From Methanobacteriota archaeon (GTDB lineage: Archaea > Thermoplasmatota > Poseidoniia > Poseidoniales > Poseidoniaceae), in contig JAACCR010000014.1 in NCBI GenBank assembly GCA_009937205.1, positions 1 to 41,841 on the forward strand: a stretch of 41,841 bases of DNA, in the 5' to 3' direction. Positions 1,342-29,307 of the stretch are shown in pieces; the first letter of the stretch is position 1, and each line of letters begins with the position of its first letter. The notes below the pieces were generated by a model. That model did no database searches. It was not told the origin of the DNA and was given only the letters and a program-made list of their open reading frames with translations. Made by a program: the position numbers and the translations under genes.

Positions 1342-2733
1342 TCACTCTTCTTTCATGTTTCCAAGGTAATCTGGAAGGTCAACACCAGCCATTGCCGCGA
1401 CATCGTGGACAGGCGGTAGTGACTTGATTAGAGAAGATACGAAGTTGGCAGTTGAACCGCCACCATCTCCACCATTGCCTGAATCCCAAACTGTAATCTT
1501 GTCAATCTTCAAGTTAGAGATTGCTTCAGTTTGTCGTGCAACCAATGCTTCAATCTTTTCAACCATCAATAATGTAGCAGCAGCCTTTGCATCGCCACCT
1601 GCGCTTTTTACAAGTTGTGCATATCCAGTAGCCTTTGCTTCCAGAACTGCTTGTTGTCCTGCAGCCTCTGCATTATATTTTGCAAGAGTAGCATCTGCTT
1701 GACCTTGTGCGATTAGGCGTTCTCTATTTGCTTCAGCAGTAGCAGCGATCTCAATTTGTTGCTTGGAGATTTCTTCACGAGCAATATCTTCAGCACGAAG
1801 TCTTTCGCCTTCCATCTCATATTGAGCCTTCTGAATATTGACTTGAGCCATACGCTTTGCAACTTCTGAACGTTGAAGTGCTTCAGCTTCCTTTTCTGCA
1901 AGGTCTGCGTTATAGAAAGCGATAGATGCTGCTGCAATGTTTTCACCTTCAACAGCAAGTGCTTCTTGATTATTGATGAATATACGCTTGTCAGCTTCTG
2001 CAGCCTTGACACCTTTTTCGGATTCGTTTAGATTATTTGCAACTTCAACAGTACGGGTTTTGTTAGCAATTGCTTCACCAGTCTCACCATCACGGCGAGC
2101 GTTTGCACGGTCAACATCTGCAGCTGCGATTGCGATAGCAGCAGCCTTTGCACCAATGGACTTGATATAATCAGCCACATCAGTAATATCTACAATGTTA
2201 ACGTTGATTAGATACAATCCAATCTTGTGTAATTCAGAGTCTACGTTTGTTGAAACATCTCTTAAGAAAGCCTCTCTGTCATTATTGATTTGTTCAATTT
2301 CTAGAGATGCAACTGTAAGACGAAGTTGACCGAAGATAATCTCTTTTGCCATGTCCTCTATTTCTGCTTGGTTCAATCCGAGCAGACGTTCTGCCGCATT
2401 GGCCATAATCGAAGGTTCAGTGGAAATACCGATAGTAAAGGATGAAGGAACATTGATACGAATGTTTTGTAATGAAAGAGCATGTTCAAGATTAATGCTA
2501 ATTGTCATTGGTTTTAGATCTAAATATGCATAGTGTTGGATTAGAGGCCAAACAACTCTTCCACCACCGTGGTAACAGGCGGCTGCCCCGCCGGCTTTGA
2601 CATTACCATATACAACCAAAATCTTGTCTGATGGTGCTAATTTATATCTTGAGGTTGCGACGTAAACCGTCCCTAATACAACTGCAACGAATAATCCAAT
2701 GCCTAAAATAAATAATGTGCCAGCAACTGCCAT
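1342..2733 (-). CDS. Flotillin-like SPFH-domain membrane scaffold protein
   Basis: A 463-residue flotillin homologue. Flotillins are membrane-anchored scaffolds that oligomerise and organise membrane microdomains. The first 26 or so residues form one hydrophobic anchor. The SPFH/band-7 domain covers roughly residues 30-200. A long Ala/Glu-rich coiled-coil region follows (about 200-400) with the repeated AEA/EAEA pattern typical of flotillins. The end has a Gly-rich linker and the stretch LPPVHDVAAMAGVDLPDYLG, which resembles the C-terminus of bacterial FloT/YuaG and eukaryotic flotillins. An NfeD-family gene lies 53 bases upstream on the same strand, the usual flotillin partner (compare yuaF-yuaG of Bacillus). 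The family assignment is strong; the cargo or process served here is unknown. Confidence 0.93.
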   Translation of the reverse strand: MAVAGTLFILGIGLFVAVVLGTVYVATSRYKLAPSDKILVVYGNVKAGGAAACYHGGGRVVWPLIQHYAYLDLKPMTISINLEHALSLQNIRINVPSSFTIGISTEPSIMANAAERLLGLNQAEIEDMAKEIIFGQLRLTVASLEIEQINNDREAFLRDVSTNVDSELHKIGLYLINVNIVDITDVADYIKSIGAKAAAIAIAAADVDRANARRDGETGEAIANKTRTVEVANNLNESEKGVKAAEADKRIFINNQEALAVEGENIAAASIAFYNADLAEKEAEALQRSEVAKRMAQVNIQKAQYEMEGERLRAEDIAREEISKQQIEIAATAEANRERLIAQGQADATLAKYNAEAAGQQAVLEAKATGYAQLVKSAGGDAKAAATLLMVEKIEALVARQTEAISNLKIDKITVWDSGNGGDGGGSTANFVSSLIKSLPPVHDVAAMAGVDLPDYLGNMKEE

Positions 2734-5240: not shown

Positions 5241-5287
5241 CGAAGCAACCAAGAACAATGGCTTCCAGTTGCCACATAGTGGCAAGT

Positions 5288-8068
5288 ATGAAGCGATTTG
5301 TAAAATCATCAATTCTAATATTATCAATGCTGATAATTTCACCACTACTTCCAGTAGTCGGAGCCTCTCTATTGCAAGAAGATGATGATTTCCAACCAAT
5401 ACACCAAGGGATCGATTATCCCGTAGGATGGAGTGAAATTAATATCGGATTCGGTCCAAATTCACAGAGTTTTGAGATGATATACCCTGCCATGTCTGGA
5501 GGAGATGATGATGAAATGGCAGGTAACGGACCATTTCCTTGGGTTCTATTTTTTGGTTCTAGCGGCGAATCAATAGATGGGTATATGGAGTTAACAAATG
5601 AGATTGTAAAGCGTGGATATATTGTTCTAGTAAGTCAAGAAATGAGTGATTCAAATGATCTTTCGGAAGGCCTAGAAATAGCCCAAACTGCATTGGAATT
5701 AATGAATAATACAAATAACTCTCATTCGATTGTTTTGGGTGGTTTCGGAAATATTGATGTTAATCACTGGGCACTTGCTGGGCATGGTGTTGGTGCAATG
5801 GCCGCAACATCACTGTATCCATATTGGCTAGCGAGTGATGACGGAAACACTACACATGGGCCTAGTGGAATTTTTGCAGTAGGGGCCGACTTTTCATCTT
5901 GGAATCAAAGAACTGGATTGTTTTCAATGGCCGACTGGCAGCCACCTCTACCGAATACAGGTTTGTTCATTACAGGTACTGCTGATGAGATTGCACCTGC
6001 TGCAGATGCGATCAGCAGACTTCAATTAATCCCTGACTTTTCTTGGCAGATGATGCATCTATTGGGTGCTAATCATTACCAATTCCAAGATACAACTTCA
6101 ATTTTTGAAATAGGCGATGGTGAAGCTACAATGAGTAAAGAAGCCCAATTAGATTTGAGTTCAACCCATATTGTTGCATATTTAGATGCAGCATTAAAGG
6201 GAGAACACAGCCGCTTCCGTGATGCTTTCAATAGGCCTATTTCGCCAGATATTATTTCAGACCCTGATTCTTATGTCGTAGAAGACTTATCCTCCGCGGA
6301 ATGGCTCAAAGTAGGTGATGTTTGGTCAGTACCTGCCAATAATGAATCGGTTGGTCCCGCAGACACAGTTAATTTGAAAATGAACTGGACTCTTCGCAAC
6401 GGTTCGCAATATTCGCAGTTACCAAGTAACTGGAATGTGACAGTGGTTTGTGATATTGATTCTTCTTTGAATACAACAGAAGGGCAAGTTGACAGCAATG
6501 GAGTAGCAATTTGTCTATTCCCAATGGTTGATGTTCAGCCGGGAGCAAATCGTTTATTCATCAGTGTATATGTCGAAGGAGCGCCTTCTCATCGTCACTT
6601 AGACATCATGAGGACAGATTCACCATTGGTTGTTTGTACTCCCCCCGCCATTATTGACATACCGCAAAGAGGTAGTACACATGTTGAAAATGGGTTAATT
6701 GCATATGACCCAGATGGGCAGAGTGTCTACCTTGATAATGCAACATTAGTAGGACCAAATTCACAGCATTTCCATTTCCAAATAGATTCAGATAATCTAG
6801 GATTTACAGTGTTCCATAGCCTAGATGAAGAATGGACTGGCTTGAATAATTTGAGGCTGGATTTGAAAGCAGGTGGGCAAACTATTGATGAAGTAACAAC
6901 AGAAATAACCCTTCGAGTAATGCCGGTTGATGATCCTGCTAGTTTGATTAAAAACATTCCATTACAACAAATGGATGAAGATTCACAATCAATAATATTG
7001 AATCTTTCAGAATATGTATTTGACCCCGAGGGAGAGGAGATCGCAGGAATTGTAAACGAAAACTCATCTGAATTAGGACCTGTTTCAATCGTCATAGCAG
7101 ATGGTTTGGTTACCATTACACCACTAGCAAATCAAAATGGTGCAGTGGTGGTTCATATGTTGGTTGGAGATGGCTATAATCCAGCACTAACTTTGGATAT
7201 CCCAATCAATGTATTGGCGATTGACGATATCTTGATCACCAATAATTCATCATGGCAAATCAATGCAACTGAAGATGAATCAATTACTCTTGATTTGAAT
7301 GATTTCGCATATGATCTTGATGGCGATTCATTAACGTGGTCAATAGAGGGTGGCGAATCCTCAAAGTGTAGTTTTGTTATTGCTGGTAATGATTTGATAG
7401 TTAATATGAAACCAGACAAATATGGTACTTGTAATTCTCAAACGCTTAATGTAACTGATGGAACTACCAATTATTCAGATATACTGAATGTGACAATTTC
7501 ACCACAACCGGATTTGCCAACTATTAGCATTGGTAATGTCAATCTTCTTGACAATCTGGCAGCAACAGTTCAATGGGATATTATTGATTTAGATGGGGAG
7601 CAATACTCAGTTGTGAGTTTTTCTCTTGAAAACATCACACAAAATGTCACTTCATCATGCAGTAATGATCAGTCTCAATATATCTCCAAATGCGTTACTA
7701 TGCTTGTTTTACCACAGCAACATGATGGCAATATCACAATTACAATCCGTGTTACTGATTTGGAATTAAATCAAACGATAGGGGTTGAATATACCTTAGA
7801 TATGAATAGTAAACCACCTGTTGAAGAAATAGAGAATATTGAAGGTAGTACAATCTCTAGTGAAATGGTCATTGGATTAGTGGGTATTTTAGTTATTCTT
7901 ATTGTGGTTGTTCTAATCAACAAGAATTCAAATTCTAACGCTCAATTACTGCGCCAGCAAGAATCGAATGTTGAACAACAGGTTGACGCTGATGAAGTAA
8001 CTAATGATCAGCAAGAAGATTCAGAAACTAGTCCGAGTGGTCTCCTAGCAAGAGCTAAGAAAATCTAG
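5288..8068 (+). CDS. Membrane-anchored surface protein with a degenerate alpha/beta-hydrolase domain and cadherin-like repeats
   Basis: A secreted protein of 926 residues when started at ATG 5288; an in-frame ATG at 5258 adds ten residues before the same signal peptide (MKRFVKSSILILSMLIIS). Residues about 38-310 resemble a dienelactone-hydrolase/chlorophyllase-type alpha/beta hydrolase, with the acid loop GTADEIAP near 230 and a histidine in GANHYQF near 262. The nucleophile elbow reads GHGVG (165-169), glycine replacing the usual serine, so hydrolase activity is doubtful. Cadherin-like repeats of the DEDSQSI...DPEGEEI and DESITLDL...DLDGDSL type follow. One transmembrane helix lies near 859-878, then an acidic/Gln-rich cytoplasmic tail ending GLLARAKKI. 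It follows aroE by 47 bases and converges on the next gene with one base between stop codons. Confidence 0.8.
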   Translation: MKRFVKSSILILSMLIISPLLPVVGASLLQEDDDFQPIHQGIDYPVGWSEINIGFGPNSQSFEMIYPAMSGGDDDEMAGNGPFPWVLFFGSSGESIDGYMELTNEIVKRGYIVLVSQEMSDSNDLSEGLEIAQTALELMNNTNNSHSIVLGGFGNIDVNHWALAGHGVGAMAATSLYPYWLASDDGNTTHGPSGIFAVGADFSSWNQRTGLFSMADWQPPLPNTGLFITGTADEIAPAADAISRLQLIPDFSWQMMHLLGANHYQFQDTTSIFEIGDGEATMSKEAQLDLSSTHIVAYLDAALKGEHSRFRDAFNRPISPDIISDPDSYVVEDLSSAEWLKVGDVWSVPANNESVGPADTVNLKMNWTLRNGSQYSQLPSNWNVTVVCDIDSSLNTTEGQVDSNGVAICLFPMVDVQPGANRLFISVYVEGAPSHRHLDIMRTDSPLVVCTPPAIIDIPQRGSTHVENGLIAYDPDGQSVYLDNATLVGPNSQHFHFQIDSDNLGFTVFHSLDEEWTGLNNLRLDLKAGGQTIDEVTTEITLRVMPVDDPASLIKNIPLQQMDEDSQSIILNLSEYVFDPEGEEIAGIVNENSSELGPVSIVIADGLVTITPLANQNGAVVVHMLVGDGYNPALTLDIPINVLAIDDILITNNSSWQINATEDESITLDLNDFAYDLDGDSLTWSIEGGESSKCSFVIAGNDLIVNMKPDKYGTCNSQTLNVTDGTTNYSDILNVTISPQPDLPTISIGNVNLLDNLAATVQWDIIDLDGEQYSVVSFSLENITQNVTSSCSNDQSQYISKCVTMLVLPQQHDGNITITIRVTDLELNQTIGVEYTLDMNSKPPVEEIENIEGSTISSEMVIGLVGILVILIVVVLINKNSNSNAQLLRQQESNVEQQVDADEVTNDQQEDSETSPSGLLARAKKI

Positions 8069-12534: not shown

Positions 12535-13494
12535 TTAATCATTTTTCAAATGGGTTACAAAGCGTGCAGTTAGGGCATCGAGTTGTATATGCTCTCCACC
12601 GCCTTCTACCAGCCTATAATCAACTTCAGCCATCCATTCAGTTAAATCTAGTTTTGCTGATTCACTAAGGAAATCAGCTGCATATAATTCACGATGTAAT
12701 TGATTGACAAAATCAGTTCCAGCCAGTCCATATTTGTCCAGTAATTCTTTCAATCTTCTTCTTGCAGCATGAAAACCATCATCCTTGCATGCCATCAAAT
12801 ATTGATGCAGTGCTTCGGGAGGTGCTGTTGCCGAGGTTTCATAGATTAATTCTCTCGTAATATTGTGGTCTAATGCGGCAGCAACTTGGAGAGCAGTAAT
12901 TGCTTTTCTAAGATCGCCTTGACTGATTCTTGTCAATGCCTCTGCAGCATCATCAGTTAGGTTTACCTTTTCTTCTTTTGCAACATATATGACGTGATTG
13001 TGTACTGCGGAATCCGAGAATGGGCGGAATCTAAAAACTGCACATCTAGACTGTATCGGTTCAATGATTTTTGAAGAGTAGTTACAAGATAAAATGAATC
13101 TGCAAGTTTGAGCATATTGTTCCATAATTCTGCGCAGAGCACCTTGTGCATCATTGGTCAAAGCATCGGCTTCATCAAGGAAAATAATCTTGAATTTAGC
13201 ACTGCCATAGGGGGCAGTTCTTGCGAATTGTTTTACTTTACTCCTTATGCTTTCCAATTTTCTTTCATCAGAGGCATTCATCTCCAATAAATTCTGTCGA
13301 TAATCGTCACCAAATACATCTTTTGTCAAAGCCATGGCGGCAGTTGTTTTTCCAGTACCAGGAGGGCCTGCGAAAAGCAAATGCGGGAATTCCTTATTCT
13401 TAGAATATATCGTTAATCGTTGCACTACGGGCAATTGTCCGCGAATATCTTGAACTGATTGCGGGCGGTGTTTTTCAACCCATAAGTCGCTCAT
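12535..13494 (-). CDS. rfcS: Replication factor C small subunit (clamp loader ATPase)
   Basis: RfcS is the AAA+ ATPase subunit of the archaeal clamp loader that opens PCNA and places it on primed DNA. The protein has 319 residues, the normal length without an intein. It starts SDLWVEKHRPQSVQDIRGQ, as archaeal and eukaryotic small subunits do. It contains Walker A GPPGTGKT (43-50), Walker B FLDEAD (105-110), the arginine-finger SRC motif (149-151) and the C-terminal collar region with HRELYAADF. An A/T-rich stretch about 60 bases upstream of ATG 13494 contains a TATA-like ctataaat on the minus strand. The gene is divergent from the giant surface protein gene. Confidence 0.97.
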   Translation of the reverse strand: MSDLWVEKHRPQSVQDIRGQLPVVQRLTIYSKNKEFPHLLFAGPPGTGKTTAAMALTKDVFGDDYRQNLLEMNASDERKLESIRSKVKQFARTAPYGSAKFKIIFLDEADALTNDAQGALRRIMEQYAQTCRFILSCNYSSKIIEPIQSRCAVFRFRPFSDSAVHNHVIYVAKEEKVNLTDDAAEALTRISQGDLRKAITALQVAAALDHNITRELIYETSATAPPEALHQYLMACKDDGFHAARRRLKELLDKYGLAGTDFVNQLHRELYAADFLSESAKLDLTEWMAEVDYRLVEGGGEHIQLDALTARFVTHLKND

Positions 13495-13688: not shown

Positions 13689-16600
13689 ATGAGTCCCATG
13701 CTACGCGATAACAAAAAACCTCAAACTTCGGTAGCCATATTAATGATAGTTCTATTTTTATTCGCAGATTTAGCACTCCCAAGTGCAGTGCCGCAATGGA
13801 AAGAATTGGAAGACAATCCAACGATTAACAGGGTAATTTCTAGCGTATCGCCTTCGGAGGACACTTACATTGATTCTTTTTATCCAAACGATAATTTTGA
13901 GCAGGCATCAAATGGCACACTTAATGGAGGTGCCATAACACCATCTCGTCTACTTTTCAGTTTCAATATGAGTTTTGGTTCTACAGATACAATACACTCA
14001 GCAACACTGAGTTTGAATTGTACGACCGATGCGACAGTTTCAACCGATATCGCAATGTATCCAGCGGCAATAACTACATCATGGAATGTGACACAAGTTA
14101 CTTGGATGAATTCTGCAATGAATACCATGTGGAATTCGCCTGGTGCTGATGGTTCGTCAGAGCGTGGTGTTTGGGAACCTCCACACCGTGCTATGGCCAA
14201 TGGGACAATGCTGGTAAACGTAACAGCGCTTGCACAGCAAGCAGCATCTAATAATCAAAACACATTAGAACTGATCGTAGCATCAGAAGGAGCAGAATAT
14301 ACTTGCGAGATGAGTGAGTCTTCAATAATGGCTCAAAGACCTTCTCTAATCTTGGACACCTCTTCTTCAGCAGCTGGTAATGGCGGAAGTGTCACAGCAG
14401 ATTTCGTTGAAGAGGGGGCATCATTGATGACTGGGGATTTTATTCTAATGGCAGAAAAGAACCCTACACTTTCCTATGATTCATTAGTTGGAAGTGGTGT
14501 GGAATTCCAACTTTCTTTAGATTCTTCTTTCAAATCAAATGAAGATCTTACATGGCATTACAGTACAATGTCGAATTCCTTCACCACAACCAGTAGTTCA
14601 GGTACTTTTGATGTTCCAAGCGGCAGTGAAATCTCCAATGGTTCAGTGATTTACTACCGTGTACGTTCAATGGATTCTACTGATACTCTTAGCGATTGGA
14701 ATGATAGTTATTTCCTGCTACCAGAATTTTCAGTTACAGATAATGGCGATGGTACTGCAACGATTGAAATTGATGCAGACGACATGGGTCTGAATGATGA
14801 CTTTATTGAGGATGCACAGGTTGACCAGCTCTCAATAAATACAAAATTCGGTTCAAATGATAAAATGGAAGTAATGATGTCGACAACAAAAGAATCAGTG
14901 GTTCACATGAGGTTAAACTTGGACCAAATTGGATTGCATAGTAATGCTACAATCCAAAGTGCAGACCTCAATTTGTCTAGATTTTCAACTTCAGGTGCGC
15001 CAGAATTATCTATTCATGAAGTAAATGCTGAAGGTGTGTGGGATGAAGATGACACAACTTGGAGACGTTCAGATTCTTCAACGCTATGGGACGATGGAGG
15101 GAGAGGTTTACTTTCAGTATCTAGCGACACTATGGTCGGCACATCATCTTCAACAGATACATCTTTTGAACTCACTGATGCAATTCAGGGATGGATCCGA
15201 GATGGTGCTTCAGGCTCCAAGGATTTCATGTTAATTGGTCGGGGTGATGAAGGGTCATATTCCTCTAGCGGATTACAAGGGATCAATTTCTATTCCTCAG
15301 AGAATAGTGACGATACTAAGAAGCCAAATTTTGAATTAACATATAGCTGGAGTTCTAACACTACCATCGCTAATACCAACTTGCTCGGGCCGGAGCAAGG
15401 GAAAGCAGTGTGGGATCAAGTAGGGCACAATCTGTCCGGAAATTCAACTCCTTCTCTAACATGGTCTGGTACCGTCTCATCTTCGTATGATGTTATTTAC
15501 GAAATCGCAACCGACTCATTTTTCCGTGATAGAGTAAACCAGATAGATACTAGGACAGATTCAAATTTCACTTCCAGCCAAGGAATTTTTAACTTAACTG
15601 GAGTTGATGAATTAAGTACTGGAAATATGTATTTCTGGAGAATGTCACATGTTGACAACGATGGACTACGAGGTGAATGGAGCTATTCCAATTTCCTAGT
15701 CAGTGGATTAACAAGTACTTGGTTGGGAGATGATAGATATGAGTTCAGGCTCAGAGATGGAAATGGGACTAACGATGGCCTTTACCCGGAATGTGACGAC
15801 ACATACATCGACAGTGGTTCTCCAACCAGCAACTATGATGAAGAAACAGAAATGCAAATTTCATACAACACTTGGCCTAGTGAAACAAGCGTGCTGTTTA
15901 ATTGCGATCTTGTTGCCAATTTACTACCGAGCGGATATGCAGTGGAATCTGCACATTTAGCCGTTAAATTGGCAGATTATCCTAGCGGTTCACCAAATGT
16001 GGCTGTTTGGGAAAGCAGACAACATAACTGGACTGCTGAAGGAGCAACTTGGACTACATATGATGGAGTCAATAATTGGGCTTCAGCGGGTGCAAACGGT
16101 TGGGAGAGAGGTTCTCTCATCGATTCATTAACAGTTGGAAACTCTTATTCTGTAGGTGATACACTTGAATGGAATGTGACATTAGGTATTCAAAATGCTA
16201 TGCGGGATGATAGGGCTGCGGACTTCATTATCGGTGTGACTGGTGTTGGAACAGGTAGTGACCGAGATATCATGATATATCCAGGTTCTACTTCTACAGC
16301 AAGTTATAGGCCACAACTTTCCTTTGTTTATGTTCCAGGTTCTGACGCAATTCCGAATGATCCAGTTCCACTTTCACCACTGAATGGGTCATGGTCTGTA
16401 ACTCCGGGGATTGAGACAGCACCAGAAAGCCGTCCTGAATTGGGTTGGTCTTTCAATGGCACCATGAGCATAGGTGGCTGGGCTGTGCAATTGGACAAAT
16501 CAACTTCATTCAGCACTCCAGATCTAATCATGACAACATCATGGCTAGATACTGGATTCGATACAACAAATCTAACTTACACACCAGCCAGTAATTTGGA

Positions 16601-19600
16601 CAATGGTTCTACTTGGTACTGGAGAGTAAGAGCAATATCGACCACAAACCAACTCGGAAATTGGTCACAAACATTCAATTTCCTTCTGCCAGATATTACT
16701 ACTTGGCCTATTGATTCAGAGAATGCAGCAGTTGAATTACGTCACAGAAAGGCGATGCCATCTCTTAATATTCCTGATTTTACAGATACATATGTAATTG
16801 AAGGAGGATCTGGTTCAAGTTCTACATATGACACATCTGGATATATCTATGTGGGTGAGATGGCAACAGGATACCAATCCGCGGGATTGATTAAGATCCC
16901 ACTAAATCAATTGCCAAATCCGAGTAATGCAAGAATTACAAATGCAGATTTAAACCTATATTCAATATTTGGTTCATCCATTGACGAGCCACTAGCGATT
17001 AGACCAGTATTACAAAGTTGGAATGCTGATGCAAATGATACAACATATGATGGAATTAACAATTGGTCAACACTCGGTGGAAGGCATATTGGGTCAGATA
17101 TTGGCACTTATGTAGATATTCAAGACAGTGTATCCGCAGGTTGGATGACATGGGATGTCACAGAGGCGATACAAGCTTCTCAGGCTGCAGGTTCTAGTGA
17201 ATTATCATTGATGATTTACGCATCTAGCACGGTAACCCAAGATTATGTCCAATTCATTTCAACAGATAGCACATCATCCGACAAACCTTGGTTGAATTTA
17301 ACTTGGTCCAATGGTAGTGCTTCAATACCGACCATTGCAGGAAATAATGCAGGTCCTAGCAACAATGCAATTACTTGGAATGCAACATCGCATGCAGCAA
17401 TACCAGAATACAAACCTACTATGTCTTGGACTCATTCTAATTCAGCAAATATTGATGACTGGAGAGTGTTCATTATGGCTGATGCAAATGAGGAAATGGA
17501 AGGACTAACCACCTATGACTCTAGATCACAGCCACAATTATTCGATTTGACAAATTTAACCTTCACACCAGGAACAGACATTACTCACACCCGTGAAGTA
17601 AGATGGATGGTACAACCAGTTGTCGATAAGATGTTGGGTCCACGCAGTACCTCCACAGTATTCCACATACCTGAAGAAATGAGCGGTGAAGTAGATTCAA
17701 CTACAGCTTGGGTCTCACTTCAAGAAGGAGCATATGTAGAGCCATTATCCTACCCAGCACTGACAGAAGACACCTATGTCGATAGCGGCAATAGATTTAC
17801 CTCTTTTGGAAATACTACAACGGTAAATGTAGGAGTAAGTCCTTTGTCAAGTAACCATTATGCTAACACATTAATATCGTTTGATTTAGGCGTGATTCCA
17901 CTTCCAAGTATCTATGAAATTCAAAATGCTACTTTGGAAATGTCAGTTTTATCAGGTTCGGGTTCAGTATTTACTTCAGTATCGGTAATGAATACATATT
18001 GGAATGAATCTTCTCAATGGGCCGCTCCTTCAGCTACAGTAAATTGGATAGCACCGGGAGCCCATCAAAGTAATGATAGCGACCTACCATTTACCGAAGG
18101 ACAATGGATTAATTCATCTGGAGATACAGTTATTTGGAATTTGACTGCCGCGATTCAAGAAGCAATTCATAATGGTCAAACTTCAATCTCTCTAATTATC
18201 CAAGGTGAGGAACTCAATCCTACAATGGGCACATATGCATTGCATAGTAGTGAATCACCAAATAATGATATGAGGCCAAGAATAAATTTCACTTATATTG
18301 AACAAGCGCCATGGATTCCTCCAGCATCCACTGGACTATTGCCTGCGGATGGAACTACACTGTGGGATACTAGCACACCTAGGCCTTCGGGACTATCCGT
18401 ATTCGATGTTAATTGGACAGAGCATCAAACCAATGAAACTAGTTGGGTTGCTTGTAAATCATACTCTCCGCGCATGTTTTATTCCGACTGTATAGATCTG
18501 GCCGATTTATCTGGAACCAATATGTCATTCAATTCCGCCACCAATACTATGACTATCTCCAATAATTCATATGAAGATGCATGGACATATTGGCGCGTTA
18601 GAGCGGATCAAAACAATCGTATTGGTCAATGGTCAACTGTTAACAGTTTTAGAACACCAGACTCAATTGGATCTGATGATGGAAATGGCAATCATACAGT
18701 AATATTGTCACGTGGGTCAATCTTCTCAGAGAGCGGCCTTTTACCACTAGCACCGGATGTGGAACTGGAATCAACTGTAACTAGCAATCAAGGGTCGAGT
18801 AATACTCTTGATTTGGGTACAACATCATCTGGAACTGGTGAAAGCCAAATTCTTCTTGAATTCTATTTGGGAGATATCCCATGGCCTGCAGCTATGACTC
18901 CTACATCTATGGTACTCAAACTTTGGAGAGAGCAAGTAATTGGAACAACTTCAACAACTGTTTCTGCACACGCTTGTTCTTCATTCACCGAATCAGTTGC
19001 CACTTGGAGTAATGCCCCAACTTGTTCAACAACTGAATTGACCAGAACAACTCTAACTCTAATGCCGCCAAATGGATGGCATGAATTTGATTTGACAAGT
19101 CTAGCGCAATCCAATATTGCTAATGGCAATACTACAATGTCAATATTACTGAAGGTTGTAGGAGCGCCTGGAACAACTCACCGCTTCTTTTCAAGTGATT
19201 ATAGTACCAATGAATCACGCCGCCCACAGTTGGTCTTAGATTATGTTGACAATACAGCAGGAATTATTCCTCCGAGCCAACCTTCACTGTTATTCCCACT
19301 AGATGGAAGCGTACTATACGATACCAGTGAAGTAGTTATTCAAAGCCAGTCAAATCCAGTCTTATCTTGGAATTTAGTAAATGGGGCGAGCGGATACATC
19401 GTTACAATTGCAAATTCAACAGGCGTCTATAAGTTCAAATCATGGGAAAGTACGTACATTAACGGTACAACATTCCGTTTCAATGACCTTCTAGATTCAG
19501 GCGATGTATTTTCTTGGTGGGTACAAGGTGTTAACCAAACAATTCCGGGCCCTTCTTCAGCGCGTTGGTCGTTCGCAATTGGTGATCCATCACATACTGA

Positions 19601-22600
19601 TAACCAAGACATGACTTTCACCTATGATTTCCAAACAGGAAATGAAGTAATGCAATTCGGTCACACAAATATTAGAGATAGTACACTGAGTGAAGCGAAT
19701 CCAAATGAAAATATGGGTGACGTAGATTATCTCAGTATTGGTACTGGGTGCGATTCTGTTGCTAATGCAGAATGTAAGGCCGTAATCGGATTAGATAATT
19801 CCCAGATACCATTTGCTCCATTCCAGAAAATACACTCCGCAAGCCTTGGATTCTATATCTCATCAATGAGCGCATCTGGTGGAGCATCTTCTTTGGATAT
19901 TTCAGTGCATAAAATGCTTTTATCATCTTGGAGCCAATCTGCTTCTTCATGGAATGAATCAATGCCGGGAATGAATTGGAGTGCTCCAGGTCTTCAAGCG
20001 GGTGTTGAGTATGATGCTACAGCAATTACTACAATCACGCTCCCATCCACCGCCACAGGGTGGTTTTGGTTGGATATAGGTGTAGATGGAATGCTTATTG
20101 ACAATGATAACCAATGGGTCATTATTGCAACACCAAATGCAGGCTCTTTTGCTCTGGACGTCTATTCTAGTGAATATGCTTCCTCCACCCATAGGCCAAA
20201 GATACAGTTGAATACAACAAATGTTAGCAGTATTTCAATTGCACCAACATTGCCAACGACGGATGCAGATTCTACATTCAGTTTCTCACATCAAGCATAC
20301 AACCACCAAGTATTGCAAATCAGCGCACCAGTAACTTGGAGTTCTAGCGATGGAAGTATTGATTCCTTCGGATTATTCACTCCACGAAGTGTTGGTACGC
20401 ACACAATTACTGCTTGTTTTGGCTTAATTTGTTCTAGTGAATCAATAACGGTAACTCCAGGAGTTCCAACTAATCTTGATGTTACACCACTAACTGGTCA
20501 AATTACATCCGATGAGTCCTTGGAGATTACAGCAACAGTTGTTGATCAATTCGGGAATGCTGTTTCAGGTGAATTGATTACATATTCTGCTACAAATGGT
20601 TCAATGGGGGGCATTAATGGCAACATCTACTATCCACACGAATCAGGAACTCAAACAGTTACTGTGACATGGGGAACACAATCGATTGATGTAGTGATTT
20701 CAGTAGACACTGGTACACCTGCATATTTTGAATTGACAGGTTGTGAAGGAACGGTCCCAGCTGGTGAATGGTGTGACATAACTCATCTTCTTTACGATCA
20801 GTATGGTAATCTGCTAAATATTTCACAAGCAGGATTGCTAACTTGGAGCACAGATGATGGTAATTACAGTGAATTGAATGGGCAATATTTCCCAGATCAC
20901 TTAGGTGTCTGGAATTTGACTCTAACATCGATTTCAGGCGCATCTGCCCAAATAGAGATTACAGTTGGACATGGAGAGATGCAGAGTCTTGAACTCGCAG
21001 TATCCTCAACATCAATTACAGCAGATGAAATCGTGTACATTAATACAACAAGAATAGATGTACGAGGAAATAGGCTGAATGTAACATTGCCAATAGAAAA
21101 TTGGACAAAGATTGCTGATGGTAACTTAAGTGCAGGTGAAACTGCAACTTGGAATCCAGTATCAAGAGGTTCTAAGTTGCTACAAGCGAGGTATGAATCC
21201 ATTACTGCAGATGTTACAATTACTGTTGCTGAAGGAGCGATTACCAGTTTAGTATTGATTGTTGATTCTGAACCTGCTAGTTGGCAAAATATGTTAATGA
21301 CTGCAGATGAAACACTAACCGTTAAGGTCAAGGCAATTGATATGAAGGATAATCGCTGGACAATAACTGCTAATTGGTCAATTTCACATCAAGATTACCA
21401 AGGTGCTTTTGAATCAGATCTCCCTAATGACCAAGCAATATTCATGGCAGAGTATGCATCACTATCCCAATATACCATCACAGCGACATATGATGATGGT
21501 AATATGATTCATACAATTTCAATATACGCAACTGTATCACATGGTGTCCTAACCGACATTGATCTAAGTTCAATAAGCAGTGAAGACGATGTGTCAAGCG
21601 AGTATGACATTACTTCTGATGATTGGATTGATTTCTCTGCAGAACTTTCAGATTTTGAAAACAATCCAATAGATTCAAGCATTCTAAGATGGTCACTAAC
21701 TGAAGAATCAAGCGGTGAAGTAACCGATATTACCGATGAATTAGTTGCAAACGGAATGAGGTGGGAAGCCGAATTGATTGGAAACTATACAATAAAGGCA
21801 TTCAATAACAGTCAATCCGGATATGAAATTGGTGATTCTGTAAGTATTACAGTTCACCATGGTCGCGCTGTAATACTTTCTGCCATTGGAGATGCAAATA
21901 CAGCTACAGCAGGATTCGAAATAACAATTACAATCACTGGAGAAGATAGCGATGGAAACACATTCCCTCAAAATGTTGAGTGGCAAGAAAACAATGGAAT
22001 CGCTCATGATATTAATGCCACAAGTGAAGACGGGATCTATACTTATCAAGCAAGAATCGAAGGTCCTCATCTCTTGACATACAGCAGTTCTGCAACAGTT
22101 AACGGCGAAATACAGTTGGCAGTTAGTGCTAAGAGAACCGTGACGCATCTAAAGGTTGAACTTTCAAGTGATTCAGTTGAACAACTTGGAGAATTTACAG
22201 TTAATGTGACAGCATTTGATGAGTTTTGGAATAAGATACCTGTGCCTCCGAGTACACTTGTTGATTCAACTGGAAGAGCGGAGATACTCAACCAAGGCGA
22301 TGGTGTTTGGAGAATAATTACTCTGGATGAAGGTAGCCAAACAATCACGGTACAATCTGGACAGGTAAGCGAAGATAGAACCTTCACCGTAACAGGAACA
22401 CTCGAAGGATTCTTTGAAGCAGGTGGTATCTTGTATTACGTTGGAGCATTTTTGGCAGCAGCAATCGCCATTGTCCTATTGATTGTCTTGAAGATTGTCC
22501 TATCTGGAAAGGATGACGAATGGGATGAGGATGAAGAAGACGAAGAGGATGATGATGAACCAACACCTGAGAGAAGAAAACCAACTCGCGGTGGTGCAGC

Positions 22601-22772
22601 AGGTCCATCAGGTCCTGCTCCCAAGATAGAACCTGAGCCAGAGGAAAACGATTACAGCAAAGATGAAAGTTACCGCGTTGACGATGAAGGAACAGAATGG
22701 TGGGAAGATGATGCTGGAACTTGGTGGTATCGCCAACAAGGCGAAGCTGATTGGTCTCAATGGGAAGACTGA
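13689..22772 (+). CDS. Giant surface protein with seven DNRLRE-like modules, Ig-like repeats, one membrane anchor and a Trp-rich acidic tail
   Basis: A single 3027-residue frame covering 22% of the window. Residues 1-35 form a signal peptide (MSPMLRDNKKPQTSVAILM...). Seven modules then recur. Each opens with a DTYIDSG-like strand or its degenerate counterpart, has a W-rich middle (SWNVTQVTWMN, HNWTAEGATWTTYDG) and ends in RPQLxxxY. They begin near residues 57, 375, 701, 1031, 1359, 1690 and 1995, alternating with fibronectin-like domains (WYWRVRAISTTNQLGNWS). This matches the DNRLRE domain known from methanosarcinal disaggregatase-related and other archaeal surface proteins. From about 2190 to 2905 come bacterial-Ig-like repeats. 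The transmembrane helix is about 2914-2938, then a run of Asp/Glu and a tail containing EWWEDDAGTWWYRQQ. N-glycosylation sequons are abundant. Role is probably adhesion or polymer binding; no catalytic domain is evident. Confidence 0.9.
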   Translation: MSPMLRDNKKPQTSVAILMIVLFLFADLALPSAVPQWKELEDNPTINRVISSVSPSEDTYIDSFYPNDNFEQASNGTLNGGAITPSRLLFSFNMSFGSTDTIHSATLSLNCTTDATVSTDIAMYPAAITTSWNVTQVTWMNSAMNTMWNSPGADGSSERGVWEPPHRAMANGTMLVNVTALAQQAASNNQNTLELIVASEGAEYTCEMSESSIMAQRPSLILDTSSSAAGNGGSVTADFVEEGASLMTGDFILMAEKNPTLSYDSLVGSGVEFQLSLDSSFKSNEDLTWHYSTMSNSFTTTSSSGTFDVPSGSEISNGSVIYYRVRSMDSTDTLSDWNDSYFLLPEFSVTDNGDGTATIEIDADDMGLNDDFIEDAQVDQLSINTKFGSNDKMEVMMSTTKESVVHMRLNLDQIGLHSNATIQSADLNLSRFSTSGAPELSIHEVNAEGVWDEDDTTWRRSDSSTLWDDGGRGLLSVSSDTMVGTSSSTDTSFELTDAIQGWIRDGASGSKDFMLIGRGDEGSYSSSGLQGINFYSSENSDDTKKPNFELTYSWSSNTTIANTNLLGPEQGKAVWDQVGHNLSGNSTPSLTWSGTVSSSYDVIYEIATDSFFRDRVNQIDTRTDSNFTSSQGIFNLTGVDELSTGNMYFWRMSHVDNDGLRGEWSYSNFLVSGLTSTWLGDDRYEFRLRDGNGTNDGLYPECDDTYIDSGSPTSNYDEETEMQISYNTWPSETSVLFNCDLVANLLPSGYAVESAHLAVKLADYPSGSPNVAVWESRQHNWTAEGATWTTYDGVNNWASAGANGWERGSLIDSLTVGNSYSVGDTLEWNVTLGIQNAMRDDRAADFIIGVTGVGTGSDRDIMIYPGSTSTASYRPQLSFVYVPGSDAIPNDPVPLSPLNGSWSVTPGIETAPESRPELGWSFNGTMSIGGWAVQLDKSTSFSTPDLIMTTSWLDTGFDTTNLTYTPASNLDNGSTWYWRVRAISTTNQLGNWSQTFNFLLPDITTWPIDSENAAVELRHRKAMPSLNIPDFTDTYVIEGGSGSSSTYDTSGYIYVGEMATGYQSAGLIKIPLNQLPNPSNARITNADLNLYSIFGSSIDEPLAIRPVLQSWNADANDTTYDGINNWSTLGGRHIGSDIGTYVDIQDSVSAGWMTWDVTEAIQASQAAGSSELSLMIYASSTVTQDYVQFISTDSTSSDKPWLNLTWSNGSASIPTIAGNNAGPSNNAITWNATSHAAIPEYKPTMSWTHSNSANIDDWRVFIMADANEEMEGLTTYDSRSQPQLFDLTNLTFTPGTDITHTREVRWMVQPVVDKMLGPRSTSTVFHIPEEMSGEVDSTTAWVSLQEGAYVEPLSYPALTEDTYVDSGNRFTSFGNTTTVNVGVSPLSSNHYANTLISFDLGVIPLPSIYEIQNATLEMSVLSGSGSVFTSVSVMNTYWNESSQWAAPSATVNWIAPGAHQSNDSDLPFTEGQWINSSGDTVIWNLTAAIQEAIHNGQTSISLIIQGEELNPTMGTYALHSSESPNNDMRPRINFTYIEQAPWIPPASTGLLPADGTTLWDTSTPRPSGLSVFDVNWTEHQTNETSWVACKSYSPRMFYSDCIDLADLSGTNMSFNSATNTMTISNNSYEDAWTYWRVRADQNNRIGQWSTVNSFRTPDSIGSDDGNGNHTVILSRGSIFSESGLLPLAPDVELESTVTSNQGSSNTLDLGTTSSGTGESQILLEFYLGDIPWPAAMTPTSMVLKLWREQVIGTTSTTVSAHACSSFTESVATWSNAPTCSTTELTRTTLTLMPPNGWHEFDLTSLAQSNIANGNTTMSILLKVVGAPGTTHRFFSSDYSTNESRRPQLVLDYVDNTAGIIPPSQPSLLFPLDGSVLYDTSEVVIQSQSNPVLSWNLVNGASGYIVTIANSTGVYKFKSWESTYINGTTFRFNDLLDSGDVFSWWVQGVNQTIPGPSSARWSFAIGDPSHTDNQDMTFTYDFQTGNEVMQFGHTNIRDSTLSEANPNENMGDVDYLSIGTGCDSVANAECKAVIGLDNSQIPFAPFQKIHSASLGFYISSMSASGGASSLDISVHKMLLSSWSQSASSWNESMPGMNWSAPGLQAGVEYDATAITTITLPSTATGWFWLDIGVDGMLIDNDNQWVIIATPNAGSFALDVYSSEYASSTHRPKIQLNTTNVSSISIAPTLPTTDADSTFSFSHQAYNHQVLQISAPVTWSSSDGSIDSFGLFTPRSVGTHTITACFGLICSSESITVTPGVPTNLDVTPLTGQITSDESLEITATVVDQFGNAVSGELITYSATNGSMGGINGNIYYPHESGTQTVTVTWGTQSIDVVISVDTGTPAYFELTGCEGTVPAGEWCDITHLLYDQYGNLLNISQAGLLTWSTDDGNYSELNGQYFPDHLGVWNLTLTSISGASAQIEITVGHGEMQSLELAVSSTSITADEIVYINTTRIDVRGNRLNVTLPIENWTKIADGNLSAGETATWNPVSRGSKLLQARYESITADVTITVAEGAITSLVLIVDSEPASWQNMLMTADETLTVKVKAIDMKDNRWTITANWSISHQDYQGAFESDLPNDQAIFMAEYASLSQYTITATYDDGNMIHTISIYATVSHGVLTDIDLSSISSEDDVSSEYDITSDDWIDFSAELSDFENNPIDSSILRWSLTEESSGEVTDITDELVANGMRWEAELIGNYTIKAFNNSQSGYEIGDSVSITVHHGRAVILSAIGDANTATAGFEITITITGEDSDGNTFPQNVEWQENNGIAHDINATSEDGIYTYQARIEGPHLLTYSSSATVNGEIQLAVSAKRTVTHLKVELSSDSVEQLGEFTVNVTAFDEFWNKIPVPPSTLVDSTGRAEILNQGDGVWRIITLDEGSQTITVQSGQVSEDRTFTVTGTLEGFFEAGGILYYVGAFLAAAIAIVLLIVLKIVLSGKDDEWDEDEEDEEDDDEPTPERRKPTRGGAAGPSGPAPKIEPEPEENDYSKDESYRVDDEGTEWWEDDAGTWWYRQQGEADWSQWED

Positions 22773-22803
22773 AAATCAAGTAATTTAGTTGTCAGGTGGT
22801 TCT

Positions 22804-25425
22804 ATGATAGGTATTGCAAATAACAAAAAATACTTATTTGCTTTGATTCTAACAATCTTGTTAACCCAAGCATTTCAGCCGATGGCAGTTGAATCATTAG
22901 ATGATGATGTTGCAATGCTAGCAGGCACTCCAAGTAGAATTGAAGTGACCTCACCACAATATTCTATGACCGCTGATGAAGTTGTTGTTTTTGAAGCAGT
23001 ATTGTATGATTCTGTAAATAATGTTGCCCAGGGAGAAGTTACTTGGAGTTGTAGCAATGGAACTATTGATAGCAATGGTTTATTCTTTCCTTGGACTGCA
23101 GGATTGATTGAAATCCGCGCCGATCACGCTTCATTGAATTCAACATACAACATCACAGTAACATCGGGTCAAGCAAACACATTGCGGATTACGACACTTT
23201 CACCTCAGGTTTTACAACCTTATACATTAAGTGCTAATGAAGTGGATTCAAGAGGTAATGAAAAAGTTAGCACCGATGTGGTTTGGACGATTGATGGAGA
23301 TTATATTGGTCAGGGCAATCCTCAATGGATTGCTGAAGATATCGGAAATACTAATCTCAGAGTGCGTTTAAACCAAATGGAATCTAATGTTGTTGTCGAA
23401 GTACTTCCAGGAAACCCATCTGAGTTTATACTGCCTGAAGGGATTCAAGTTCGCTCTGGACAATCTGTTTTATTAGAGCCAAAACTAGTAGACGCTAACG
23501 GTTTCACGATGAATGTTTCAACCGCTGGTTCAATCTCATGGTATGCGGAAAATGGTTCAATCAATAATCAAGGATTATATCAAGCATCAGCACCGGGGCT
23601 TTGGAATATTTCGATTTCAGCAGGTGGAATATTTGGTAATGGTAGCCTATATGTTGTGCCAGCCAATGCCATGATTTCACAATTGGTCATAATGGAGGAA
23701 CTAGAGTCGTATGCCGCCGGTACTGCATACGAAATTGCAACTATTAGAACTGACAATAATGGATATTCGGGCTATGTCATCCCCCCATTATCGAATTGGT
23801 CAATTTCAAGTGGAGGACTTCATTATGAAGATGAAAAGGTTTGGTGGACTCCTAGTTCAACAGGACAAGTAACACTGCAAGTTGTTGATGAAGATGTATC
23901 TTCTAGTCTAGAAGTAAATGTGGTTCATGGGAATGCAATAGACGCCACCCTATCCTTCAGTAAATCTCATTTGACAGCAGGAACTCAATGTGTTGTATTC
24001 TTTGAAGCGTTTGACCGCTCTGGCAATCATTGGCCAGTAGACGGAGAAATCTCTCTAGCAACAGGTAATGCTTCTTTGACTCAGATTGAGTCAGACCATG
24101 CAATATTCAACCCACAAATAGTTGGAACGTGGAGATTTGAAGCCACCTGGTTTGACAATTCTACAGATTCAAGATATAATGTGGCCAATCAAATTGAAGT
24201 CAACCACGGCCATCTTTCGTTTATTCATCTAAACGGAAACTCGATGATCTTACCTGCAGATACTCCATTATTACTCGACCCACAATTCACAGATGCCTAT
24301 GGCAACCAAATAGTCGGAGTAAATGTTAATTGGACCATTGACGATATAGATTCAACATTAGAACTCATTTTATCACAAGGATATTTTTCTTCTTCAATAG
24401 TTGGTGGCCATGAAATAAGGGCAAATGCTGATGGTATTTTTGCAACGATAAGATTGACAGTTGTAGCAGGTTCAGCACAGCATTTGATAACGGATAAGGA
24501 TAGTGGTATTACAGCGATTGCGGGTGAGGAAACGGACATATTCGTTCAGGTGGTTGATATTCATGGAAATACTGCACCGAGTAATAATTTAACCAATGAT
24601 TTACCGGTTTCAATTGGTGTTTTGGAGACTTCATCCACAGGAATTGGTTATTGGACATTCACGGGGAAGACAGCAGGAATATACACATTGACAATCGAAG
24701 AAGGAGATGCCCATCGAGAGATTGAATTGACTGTATTACCTGGTAAAGCAGTTCGTATTGAAGCAGAAATCGATGGTGATGCACTATCGCAAGGTGATAT
24801 ATTTTTACTAAGGGCAAATGGTATTGATTCATTTGGAAATAATGTTGAAATCGATGCGGAAAATACTACTATTTCTTGCACAGCAGGACCAACCTCACAT
24901 GTGACAACGGATACATGGGAGGTGGAGATTACATCTGCTGGAAACGATCGTTCCTGTACAATAATGTGGGAAGGAATAATTGCTCAAAATTTCTTTGATG
25001 TTGAATCGGTATTGCTTGGTGGATCAGTGGGCTCCACAAATACGGCTATGGGATTGGGTGCCTTCCTTCTTTCTCTTGTTTTGATTACACTTGTCGTCCT
25101 AATTCGCAAAGCTAATCAAGTCCCTGAAGATGAATGGATTGAAGACGCATTTGATTATGATGAAGAAAAACCTGAAAGTTCAGCCTCGCAGGAAGATGAA
25201 GAAAAAGAACAATCCGAATCAGATTCTGCTAGTGATCAACAAACCAATGGTGACTGGATTGACAATGCCATGAAAACCGAACTAGCAGCAGTAGCTGCAG
25301 AGGTTGGAGTAATGCAAGCAGCACCGGGTACAGAACAAGGTTCAACAGGTTGGTATGTAGATGTCAGCGAAGAAGTACAGTACTGGGATGTTGCTGACGA
25401 TGGTACTTGGAATAGAGTCTCGTGA
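22804..25425 (+). CDS. Membrane-anchored Ig-repeat surface protein, paralogous to the C-terminal part of the giant protein
   Basis: With ATG 22804 (preceded by AGGTGGT as a plausible ribosome binding site) the product has 873 residues; a TTG at 22789 would add five. A signal peptide occupies about residues 1-33 (MIGIANNKKYLFALILTILL). Bacterial-Ig-like repeats follow, each starting near SMTADEVVVFEA-type strands and ending in VNHG or VVHG. A single transmembrane helix lies near 750-771 (GAFLLSLVLITLVVLI). The tail of about 100 residues is acidic and Gln/Ser-rich and ends with Trp-containing YWDVADDGTWNR. Repeat type, anchor and tail match the C-terminal third of the preceding giant protein, whose stop is only 31 bases upstream, so the two are likely co-transcribed paralogues acting on the cell surface. 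Confidence 0.85.
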   Translation: MIGIANNKKYLFALILTILLTQAFQPMAVESLDDDVAMLAGTPSRIEVTSPQYSMTADEVVVFEAVLYDSVNNVAQGEVTWSCSNGTIDSNGLFFPWTAGLIEIRADHASLNSTYNITVTSGQANTLRITTLSPQVLQPYTLSANEVDSRGNEKVSTDVVWTIDGDYIGQGNPQWIAEDIGNTNLRVRLNQMESNVVVEVLPGNPSEFILPEGIQVRSGQSVLLEPKLVDANGFTMNVSTAGSISWYAENGSINNQGLYQASAPGLWNISISAGGIFGNGSLYVVPANAMISQLVIMEELESYAAGTAYEIATIRTDNNGYSGYVIPPLSNWSISSGGLHYEDEKVWWTPSSTGQVTLQVVDEDVSSSLEVNVVHGNAIDATLSFSKSHLTAGTQCVVFFEAFDRSGNHWPVDGEISLATGNASLTQIESDHAIFNPQIVGTWRFEATWFDNSTDSRYNVANQIEVNHGHLSFIHLNGNSMILPADTPLLLDPQFTDAYGNQIVGVNVNWTIDDIDSTLELILSQGYFSSSIVGGHEIRANADGIFATIRLTVVAGSAQHLITDKDSGITAIAGEETDIFVQVVDIHGNTAPSNNLTNDLPVSIGVLETSSTGIGYWTFTGKTAGIYTLTIEEGDAHREIELTVLPGKAVRIEAEIDGDALSQGDIFLLRANGIDSFGNNVEIDAENTTISCTAGPTSHVTTDTWEVEITSAGNDRSCTIMWEGIIAQNFFDVESVLLGGSVGSTNTAMGLGAFLLSLVLITLVVLIRKANQVPEDEWIEDAFDYDEEKPESSASQEDEEKEQSESDSASDQQTNGDWIDNAMKTELAAVAAEVGVMQAAPGTEQGSTGWYVDVSEEVQYWDVADDGTWNRVS

Positions 25426-28374: not shown

Positions 28375-29196
28375 TCATTCTGAATATGATTCATCTTCAC
28401 TAGGGAAGTCTCCAGAACGAACATCATCACAATATTGTGTGATTGCATTGTTAATGTCGGTTGATAGATTCAGATAGCGACGTAAGAACCGTGGTGAGAA
28501 ATCCATGGTGATTCCCAGTAAGTCGTGGAGAACAAGTACTTGTCCATCGCAATCAGGTCCAGCCCCAATACCAATGGTTGGGATGGAAATAGATTCACTG
28601 ACTTTCTTAGCCAGTTCGCGAGGTATCTTTTCCAATACAATCGCAAAGCAACCAGCATCTTCTAGCAGTTTAGCATCCGAGATTAGTTTCGCAGCTTCTT
28701 CATCTTCCTTTGCTCTAACCGTATAGGTTCCGAATTTGTAAATTGACTGGGGCGTAAGTCCGAGGTGACCCATTACTGGTATTCCAGCGGTTAGAATTCT
28801 CTTGACCGATTCAACTACTTCAGAACCGCCTTCAAGTTTTACTGAATGCCCATTTGATTCTTTCATTATCCGTACCGCAGATTCTAGGGCGACTGTAGAA
28901 TTACCTTGGTATGATCCAAATGGCATATCTACAACTATCAATGCTCTGTCGACTGCTCTTTCAACACACTGTGCATGGTATATCATATGGTCCAATGTGA
29001 TTGGTACAGTTGTTGCATGGCCGGCCATGACATTAGATGCAGAATCTCCTACGAGAATAATATCAACACCGGCTTTGTCAACCAGTTTAGCCAATGAGAA
29101 GTCATAGGCTGTCAGCATGGTGATTTTTTCACCCGCACCCTTCATTTCTTGCAAGGTGTTTGTAGTAACCTTCCTCGCTTGGCCATGAATGGACAT
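28375..29196 (-). CDS. panB: 3-Methyl-2-oxobutanoate hydroxymethyltransferase
   Basis: PanB transfers a hydroxymethyl group from 5,10-methylene-tetrahydrofolate to 2-oxoisovalerate, giving ketopantoate for coenzyme A synthesis. ATG 29196 gives 273 residues, the usual length (about 263-280); a TTG at 29250 would add 18 unlikely residues. Metal-binding residues are D51 in [13 protein letters not shown]90 in VVDMPFGSY and E122 in VKLEGG. The expected catalytic Glu is E189 in [16 protein letters not shown] is also present. All correspond to D45, D84, E114 and E181 of the Escherichia coli enzyme. It stands alone on its strand, divergent from the monooxygenase operon across 29197-29307. Confidence 0.95.
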
Positions 29197-29307
29197 AACA
29201 CTGCCAATCGTCAAGTAGTTTTCAATCAATCGCCGAATATCATTTCTCAATTAGCATCGCCACATTTGTTATGACTGGTCACTTATTGGCTATGTGTGGG
29301 ACAGACT

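Follow-up and report, generated by a model that had tools for sequence, protein, structure and literature searches.

The closest described relatives of the protein considered here are of three kinds: the modules of the DNRLRE (NF033679) and CBM96 (PF24517) families, the latter represented by the structures 7VBO and 8WAB; the Methanosarcina cell-surface and disaggregatase proteins (PF06848), surface proteins of archaea in which DNRLRE-type units are repeated; and the tandem fibronectin type III (FN3) domains, as in 1FNF and neogenin. The protein, referred to below as the giant, is encoded in the window, a stretch of 41,841 nucleotides that is contig 21 of a 1.77-Mb assembly (82% complete). The source genome is a Candidatus Poseidoniaceae of Marine Group II (MGII), and its named relatives are metagenome-assembled genomes of the same family, including the closed MG-II chromosome CM001443. 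In surface waters of the ocean MGII are the archaea found in greatest abundance, and none has been brought into culture (PMC6461757); archaella, thrombospondin and flotillin have been named as their attachment candidates (PMC6461757, PMC6864105). The giant gene is one open reading frame (ORF) with an ATG start (13689..22772, forward strand) and 3,027 codons' worth of protein; the interval 13689-20225 assigned to it in the initial annotation corresponds to its first 2,179 residues and falls short of the ORF end at 22772. Seven DNRLRE modules (D1 to D7) alternate with six fibronectin-like modules (F1 to F6), and D7 leads directly into an immunoglobulin (Ig)-like array, after which the chain has one transmembrane helix, then an acidic linker and finally a conserved tail (Table 1). 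The giant is probably a membrane-anchored surface protein, and its reading as an old, fixed and stalk-like one is well supported by sequence comparison.

With the DNRLRE/CBM96 modules the giant shares the sequence family, above the curated cut-off, and the beta-sandwich fold. It differs in that a single membrane protein of non-enzymatic kind carries seven copies, and in that these are acidic and show no conservation of the alginate Lys/Arg or of the Asp82 calcium ligand. In contrast with the Methanosarcina proteins, its DNRLRE units alternate with FN3-like ones, and it has an Ig array, a transmembrane helix and a WW-like tail, and no enzyme domain. Likeness to FN3 tandems is seen in Foldseek matches and in the Trp-rich WYWRVR strand; however, no fn3 family was listed for the giant in a Pfam search with E up to 10, and its F copies are separated by DNRLRE domains.

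The repeats were evaluated with hidden Markov models (HMMs), each built from the remaining modules and searched for the omitted one, with 200 shuffled copies as control. All seven D modules were recovered (65-113 bits, E ≤ 6.7e-20), as were F1 to F6 (36-79 bits, E ≤ 5.7e-11), against 6.8 bits for the best shuffle in either class. The whole protein matched NF033679 with 325.9 bits (E 4.8e-98; curated cut-off 34 bits) and PF24517 with E 1.1e-51, in seven stretches each, and six of the seven modules were singly above the NF033679 cut-off in a genome search; Disaggr_repeat (PF06848) also matched, with E 5.6e-17. The module starts measured at residues 56, 372, 702, 1031, 1359, 1690 and 1995, with spacings of 316, 330, 329, 328, 331 and 305 residues, agree closely with those proposed initially (57, 375, 701, 1031, 1359, 1690 and 1995). 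The pairing of each module with a fibronectin-like domain holds for the first six and fails after D7, given that the F-type HMM found exactly six domains across the giant and none beyond D7. In profile-profile comparisons most D-D pairs reached 76-98% probability, the weakest being D3-D6 (11%) and D1-D4 (54%), while D against F or Ig gave at most 3%; from this, D and F form two homologous classes that have no relation to one another or to the Ig-like units. A BLASTP comparison of the giant against itself listed no internal repeat, and HMMs were needed to see them; therefore the copies are strongly diverged, as had been claimed. In the Ig-like array the Pfam matches were below the cut-offs, with 17.7 bits for Big_1 (cut-off 34.9) and 12.3 bits for Big_4 (cut-off 22.1).

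An orthologue of the giant was found in 58 of 60 genomes of the same genus, and a match in 89 of 146 Poseidoniales genomes that represent 14 of 21 genera, with identities down to 32%; in genus g9 (g9, g13, g16 and g20 are working codes) what matches at the locus is only the downstream paralogue, not the giant. The giant is present in both sampled families, which we read, from the named records and the two-family taxonomy in PMC6461757, as Poseidoniaceae and Thalassarchaeaceae. All 42/42 representatives have a module at each of the seven D and six F positions; the lengths of F1, F3 and F4 differ among them by about 1 residue and those of most D modules by 2-5, and orthologues have approximately 3,000-3,250 residues even at 32-35% identity. 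In a tree of 84 D modules (7 modules from 12 orthologues), each of the seven positions formed its own clade spanning both families, with support of 76-100. Since every position forms a separate clade common to both families, the seven-copy array is older than the split between them, and no module was added or dropped among the orthologues sampled. The proposals of an old internal duplication and of selection on the architecture are thus borne out, and the module number, compared among relatives, is a constant seven. Duplication of D and F as a single block was also considered and is not favoured, because the D tree and the F tree disagree, with weak support for both.

In a two-gene species tree all giant-negative Thalassarchaeaceae were grouped in one clade (100/99), which argues for a single loss in a derived clade of this family; a separate loss, of the giant alone, took place in the Poseidoniaceae genus g9. 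The genomes of the loss clade are smaller (1.2-1.6 Mb) than those of positive Thalassarchaeaceae (1.3-2.1 Mb). A loss on a defined branch makes the ecological effect of the giant comparable between sister groups.

An AlphaFold2 model of the D5-F5-D6 stretch, obtained with an alignment of 41 orthologues, had a mean predicted local distance difference test score (pLDDT) of 92.9 and a predicted template-modelling score (pTM) of 0.86. Using this model, Foldseek gave as top match 8WAB, a chondroitin sulfate-binding module (E 4.8e-9, target template-modelling (TM) score 0.72), followed by the alginate-binding module 7VBO (E 2.0e-6, target TM 0.68) and then by FN3 tandems (e.g., 1FNF), with a low global TM for this three-domain query. 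An HMM of the same stretch retrieved 8WAB (E 1.7e-11) and 7VBO by sequence. In the model, the D modules have the beta-sandwich fold of these CBM96 structures, and a pTM this high is suggestive of a defined arrangement of D, F and D. The rod-like architecture suggested in the initial annotation is favoured by this confident model, from which the extended shape itself is extrapolated.

The top fold matches, the Pfam CBM96 match and the marine host would agree with the giant being a true polysaccharide-binding array, whose seven DNRLRE units would bind polyanions from algae (alginate, sulfated glycans) in the manner of CBM96 modules; nevertheless, we regard this explanation as quite improbable in view of the ligand positions and of charge. 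The alginate-binding residues of 7VBO are Lys22, Lys25, Lys27, Lys31 and Arg36 (PMC9971899). According to a comparison by sequence alignment only, in which the 7 modules of 12 orthologues make 84 cells, the corresponding columns are mostly non-basic (basic in 5/84 for Arg36 and in 0/84 for Lys27). The core residues Trp84 and Ala54 are kept. Of the two residues of the structural calcium site, Asp82 and Asp142, the column of Asp82 does not hold Asp in the modules of the window, and the region of Asp142 was aligned unreliably. The net charge of each D module ranges from -5 to -16. In view of the acidic character of the modules and of the lack of conservation at the ligand Lys/Arg, polyanion (alginate-like) binding of the CBM96 type was rejected as unlikely; the polysaccharide binding initially proposed is conjectural, in that the modules have the CBM96 fold but lack the alginate contacts. 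The D modules may bind neutral glycans or proteins or associate with themselves. The giant also contains 63 N-X-S/T sequons versus 42 ± 5.7 in shuffled sequences, none of 500 of which reached 63, and the enrichment was likewise present in 8/8 orthologues tested, which is consistent with a glycosylated exterior.

The explanation that we favour, and consider reasonably probable as a whole, is that the giant is a surface protein that Poseidoniales inherit vertically and that crosses the membrane once, serving as a stalk of adhesin-like or scaffold type, its tail being an adaptor in the cytoplasm. We infer its surface location and its stalk shape; the adhesive function and the common partner of the tail may be supposed. 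The protein would be exported, N-glycosylated and anchored via its C-terminal helix, and both export and anchoring are supported by the N-terminal hydrophobic segment together with this helix. The ectodomain would be a stalk of around 21 beta-sandwich domains with a length of perhaps tens of nm, holding the outer DNRLRE/FN3 part off the cell, where it could touch neutral glycans, particles, other cells or further copies of itself, and the tail would lie in the cytoplasm, docking the giant and several other large surface proteins on a common cytoplasmic partner. Such a conserved stalk would provide a concrete, testable surface protein for MGII. Several points weigh against this explanation. We found neither an experiment on any of these proteins nor, in a search of freely accessible literature, a paper on this protein in Poseidoniales. 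Since conservation is lacking at the CBM96 ligand positions, the DNRLRE units may have a structural role and nothing more. Moreover, the MGII cells of the North Sea were mostly free-living by microscopy (PMC6864105), which weakens a constant adhesive role. Finally, a role resembling that of a surface layer (S-layer), although unlikely, has to be weighed: the giant would be a major structural component of the envelope, S-layer-like or a pericellular mesh, and its DNRLRE/FN3 part would serve lateral self-association and not contact with foreign material. The presence of one locus in nearly all Poseidoniaceae genomes searched, the constant architecture and the acidic, sequon-rich ectodomain fit this role, and DNRLRE domains are present in archaeal S-layer proteins as mentioned in PMC9971899, citing Adindla et al. 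2004. However, the derived Thalassarchaeaceae clade and g9 have lost the giant, with nothing taking its place at the locus, something one would not expect of a main wall protein. As for a stalk that does not adhere and instead scaffolds or presents secreted hydrolases or the archaellum, its domain content is that of a passive scaffold, and MGII archaea are generally known to depend on extracellular peptidases; but the giant lacks a catalytic domain, no docking domain was seen, and its distribution is unlike that of archaellin (PF01917), since g16 has the giant without archaellin and g13 and g20 show the reverse. The archaellum was therefore rejected as a partner, and this explanation is very improbable.

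Another aspect of the favoured, surface-stalk explanation is the C-terminal tail. The last 33 residues are the most conserved region of the protein, with 57% identity to the window between families versus 12-40% elsewhere. A search of four genomes found the tail motif VDxDGTEWWxDxxGxWWYRxxxxxxWxxW in 4-9 places per genome. Most of the proteins that bear it are large and finish with the tail, have a hydrophobic segment at the N-terminus and a single C-terminal helix, and match FG-GAP, beta-propeller, thrombospondin type 3 or CARDB; one family has about 245 residues, without helix or signal. Its representative (G000:C40:2334-3026) is highly charged and has a weak match to Pfam FIMAH (E 0.0015). 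In a Thalassarchaeaceae genome, another tail-bearing surface protein of 1,455 residues has one DNRLRE and one CARDB domain (G073:C5:181000-185600). The occurrence of the tail in the 245-residue protein, without signal or transmembrane segment, argues that the tail is cytoplasmic. A tail profile matched the same 89/146 genomes (14 genera) as the search with the giant, and the soluble family is present in 81/146, again in these 14 genera. This co-occurrence is explained by one loss clade and so is weak evidence and not an independent proof; it was rejected as a strong functional linkage also in view of g9, which lacks the giant and keeps the tail on other proteins. With AlphaFold2 the tail is predicted as a small beta sheet, with short strands at 6-8, 14-17 and 23-26 (pLDDT 90.4). 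As an analogy from general knowledge, the WW domain and DUF2510 are similar in having around 33 residues, in being Trp-rich and in the small sheet; nevertheless, Pfam searches of four tails with E up to 10 gave no family and no WW match, and no significant fold or sequence relative was found in the PDB (best Foldseek E 1.0). The tail was thus rejected as a WW domain or as kin of any solved structure. Our tentative proposal, somewhat less probable than even, is that it is an undescribed cytoplasmic mini-domain docking large single-pass surface proteins (the giant, FG-GAP proteins and proteins with thrombospondin repeats, the latter two of approximately 1,200-1,450 residues) and the one soluble 245-residue protein to a common intracellular partner, in a system lost whole in the most streamlined Thalassarchaeaceae. 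If this is true, one may begin to ask how archaea organise their surface proteins from the inside.

Table 1. Features of the giant gene and its surroundings; positions refer to the window, except for the last row, which lists places in genome G000.
Feature	Position	Strand	Basis or remark
Replication factor C small subunit, divergent neighbour	12535..13494	-	Pfam; marks locus in both families
Giant protein gene, 3,027 residues	13689..22772	+	ORF; orthologue in 58/60 same-genus genomes
Putative N-terminal signal/anchor segment, residues 1-33	13689..13787	+	hydrophobic stretch read from sequence
DNRLRE module D1, residues 56-224	13854..14360	+	leave-one-out HMM 66.9 bits; NF033679 56.2 bits
Fibronectin-like F1	14361..14801	+	leave-one-out HMM 44.8 bits
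DNRLRE module D2, residues 372-552	14802..15344	+	leave-one-out HMM 78.3 bits
Fibronectin-like F2	15345..15791	+	leave-one-out HMM 54.2 bits
DNRLRE module D3, residues 702-881	15792..16331	+	leave-one-out HMM 85.9 bits
Fibronectin-like F3, WYWRVR strand	16332..16778	+	leave-one-out HMM 79.2 bits
DNRLRE module D4, residues 1031-1206	16779..17306	+	leave-one-out HMM 85.2 bits
Fibronectin-like F4	17307..17759	+	leave-one-out HMM 64.4 bits
DNRLRE module D5, residues 1358-1537 (1359-1536 by HMM)	17760..18299	+	leave-one-out HMM 112.8 bits; AlphaFold2 model
Fibronectin-like F5, TYWRVR strand	18300..18755	+	leave-one-out HMM 36.3 bits; AlphaFold2 model
DNRLRE module D6, residues 1690-1852	18756..19244	+	leave-one-out HMM 69.3 bits; NF033679 78.9 bits; AlphaFold2 model
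Fibronectin-like F6, last F	19245..19670	+	leave-one-out HMM 38.3 bits; no later F match
DNRLRE module D7, residues 1995-2176	19671..20216	+	leave-one-out HMM 65.3 bits
Tandem Ig-like (Big-type) array, about 8 units, approximate boundaries	20217..22424	+	sub-cut-off Pfam Big_1/Big_4; hhalign relates most neighbouring units
Single C-terminal transmembrane helix, about residues 2914-2938	22428..22502	+	hydropathy scan
Conserved C-terminal mini-domain VDxDGTEWWxDxxGxWWYRxxxxxxWxxW	22671..22769	+	57% cross-family identity; recurs in other proteins; AlphaFold2 pLDDT 90.4
Downstream paralogue of Ig array, 878 residues, C-terminal transmembrane helix, own W/Y-rich tail	22789..25425	+	adjacent to giant in both families
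Further tail copies	G000:C96:12098-12202; G000:C113:7315-7395; G000:C40:2334-2444; G000:C111:3439-3534

In both families the giant gene adjoins, and diverges from, the gene for the replication factor C small subunit. The gap between the giant and the downstream paralogue is of 16 bases, and judging from this arrangement both are probably co-transcribed. The paralogue of Thalassarchaeaceae has 1,119-1,241 residues and one DNRLRE domain, in contrast with that of Poseidoniaceae, which has none. The possibility that this gene is a simple duplicate of the 3' end of the giant was rejected, because its Thalassarchaeaceae DNRLRE domain mostly has its best score against D5 (against D2 or D3 in 2/8) and not against D7. 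In seven genomes of negative genera, the replication factor C gene is followed by a putative panB-like gene, so called from its sequence likeness to positions 28375-29250 of the window, and no match to the giant or to the paralogue was found in the fetched stretch. In genus g9 (G136:C48) the giant is missing between these two genes, and a downstream-gene paralogue of 741 residues stays. The contig of the giant also carries a flotillin/Band 7 gene (window 1342-2733); flotillin has been proposed to influence the cell-surface properties of MGII (PMC6461757). Near the giant, at 5258-8068 of the window, a protein of 936 residues with Big_9/cadherin-like matches is a second probable surface protein. 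In the MG-II chromosome CM001443 the giant ORF goes out of frame near the C-terminus and the tail lies in a separate frame of 69 residues beside a run of N, probably due to an assembly error.

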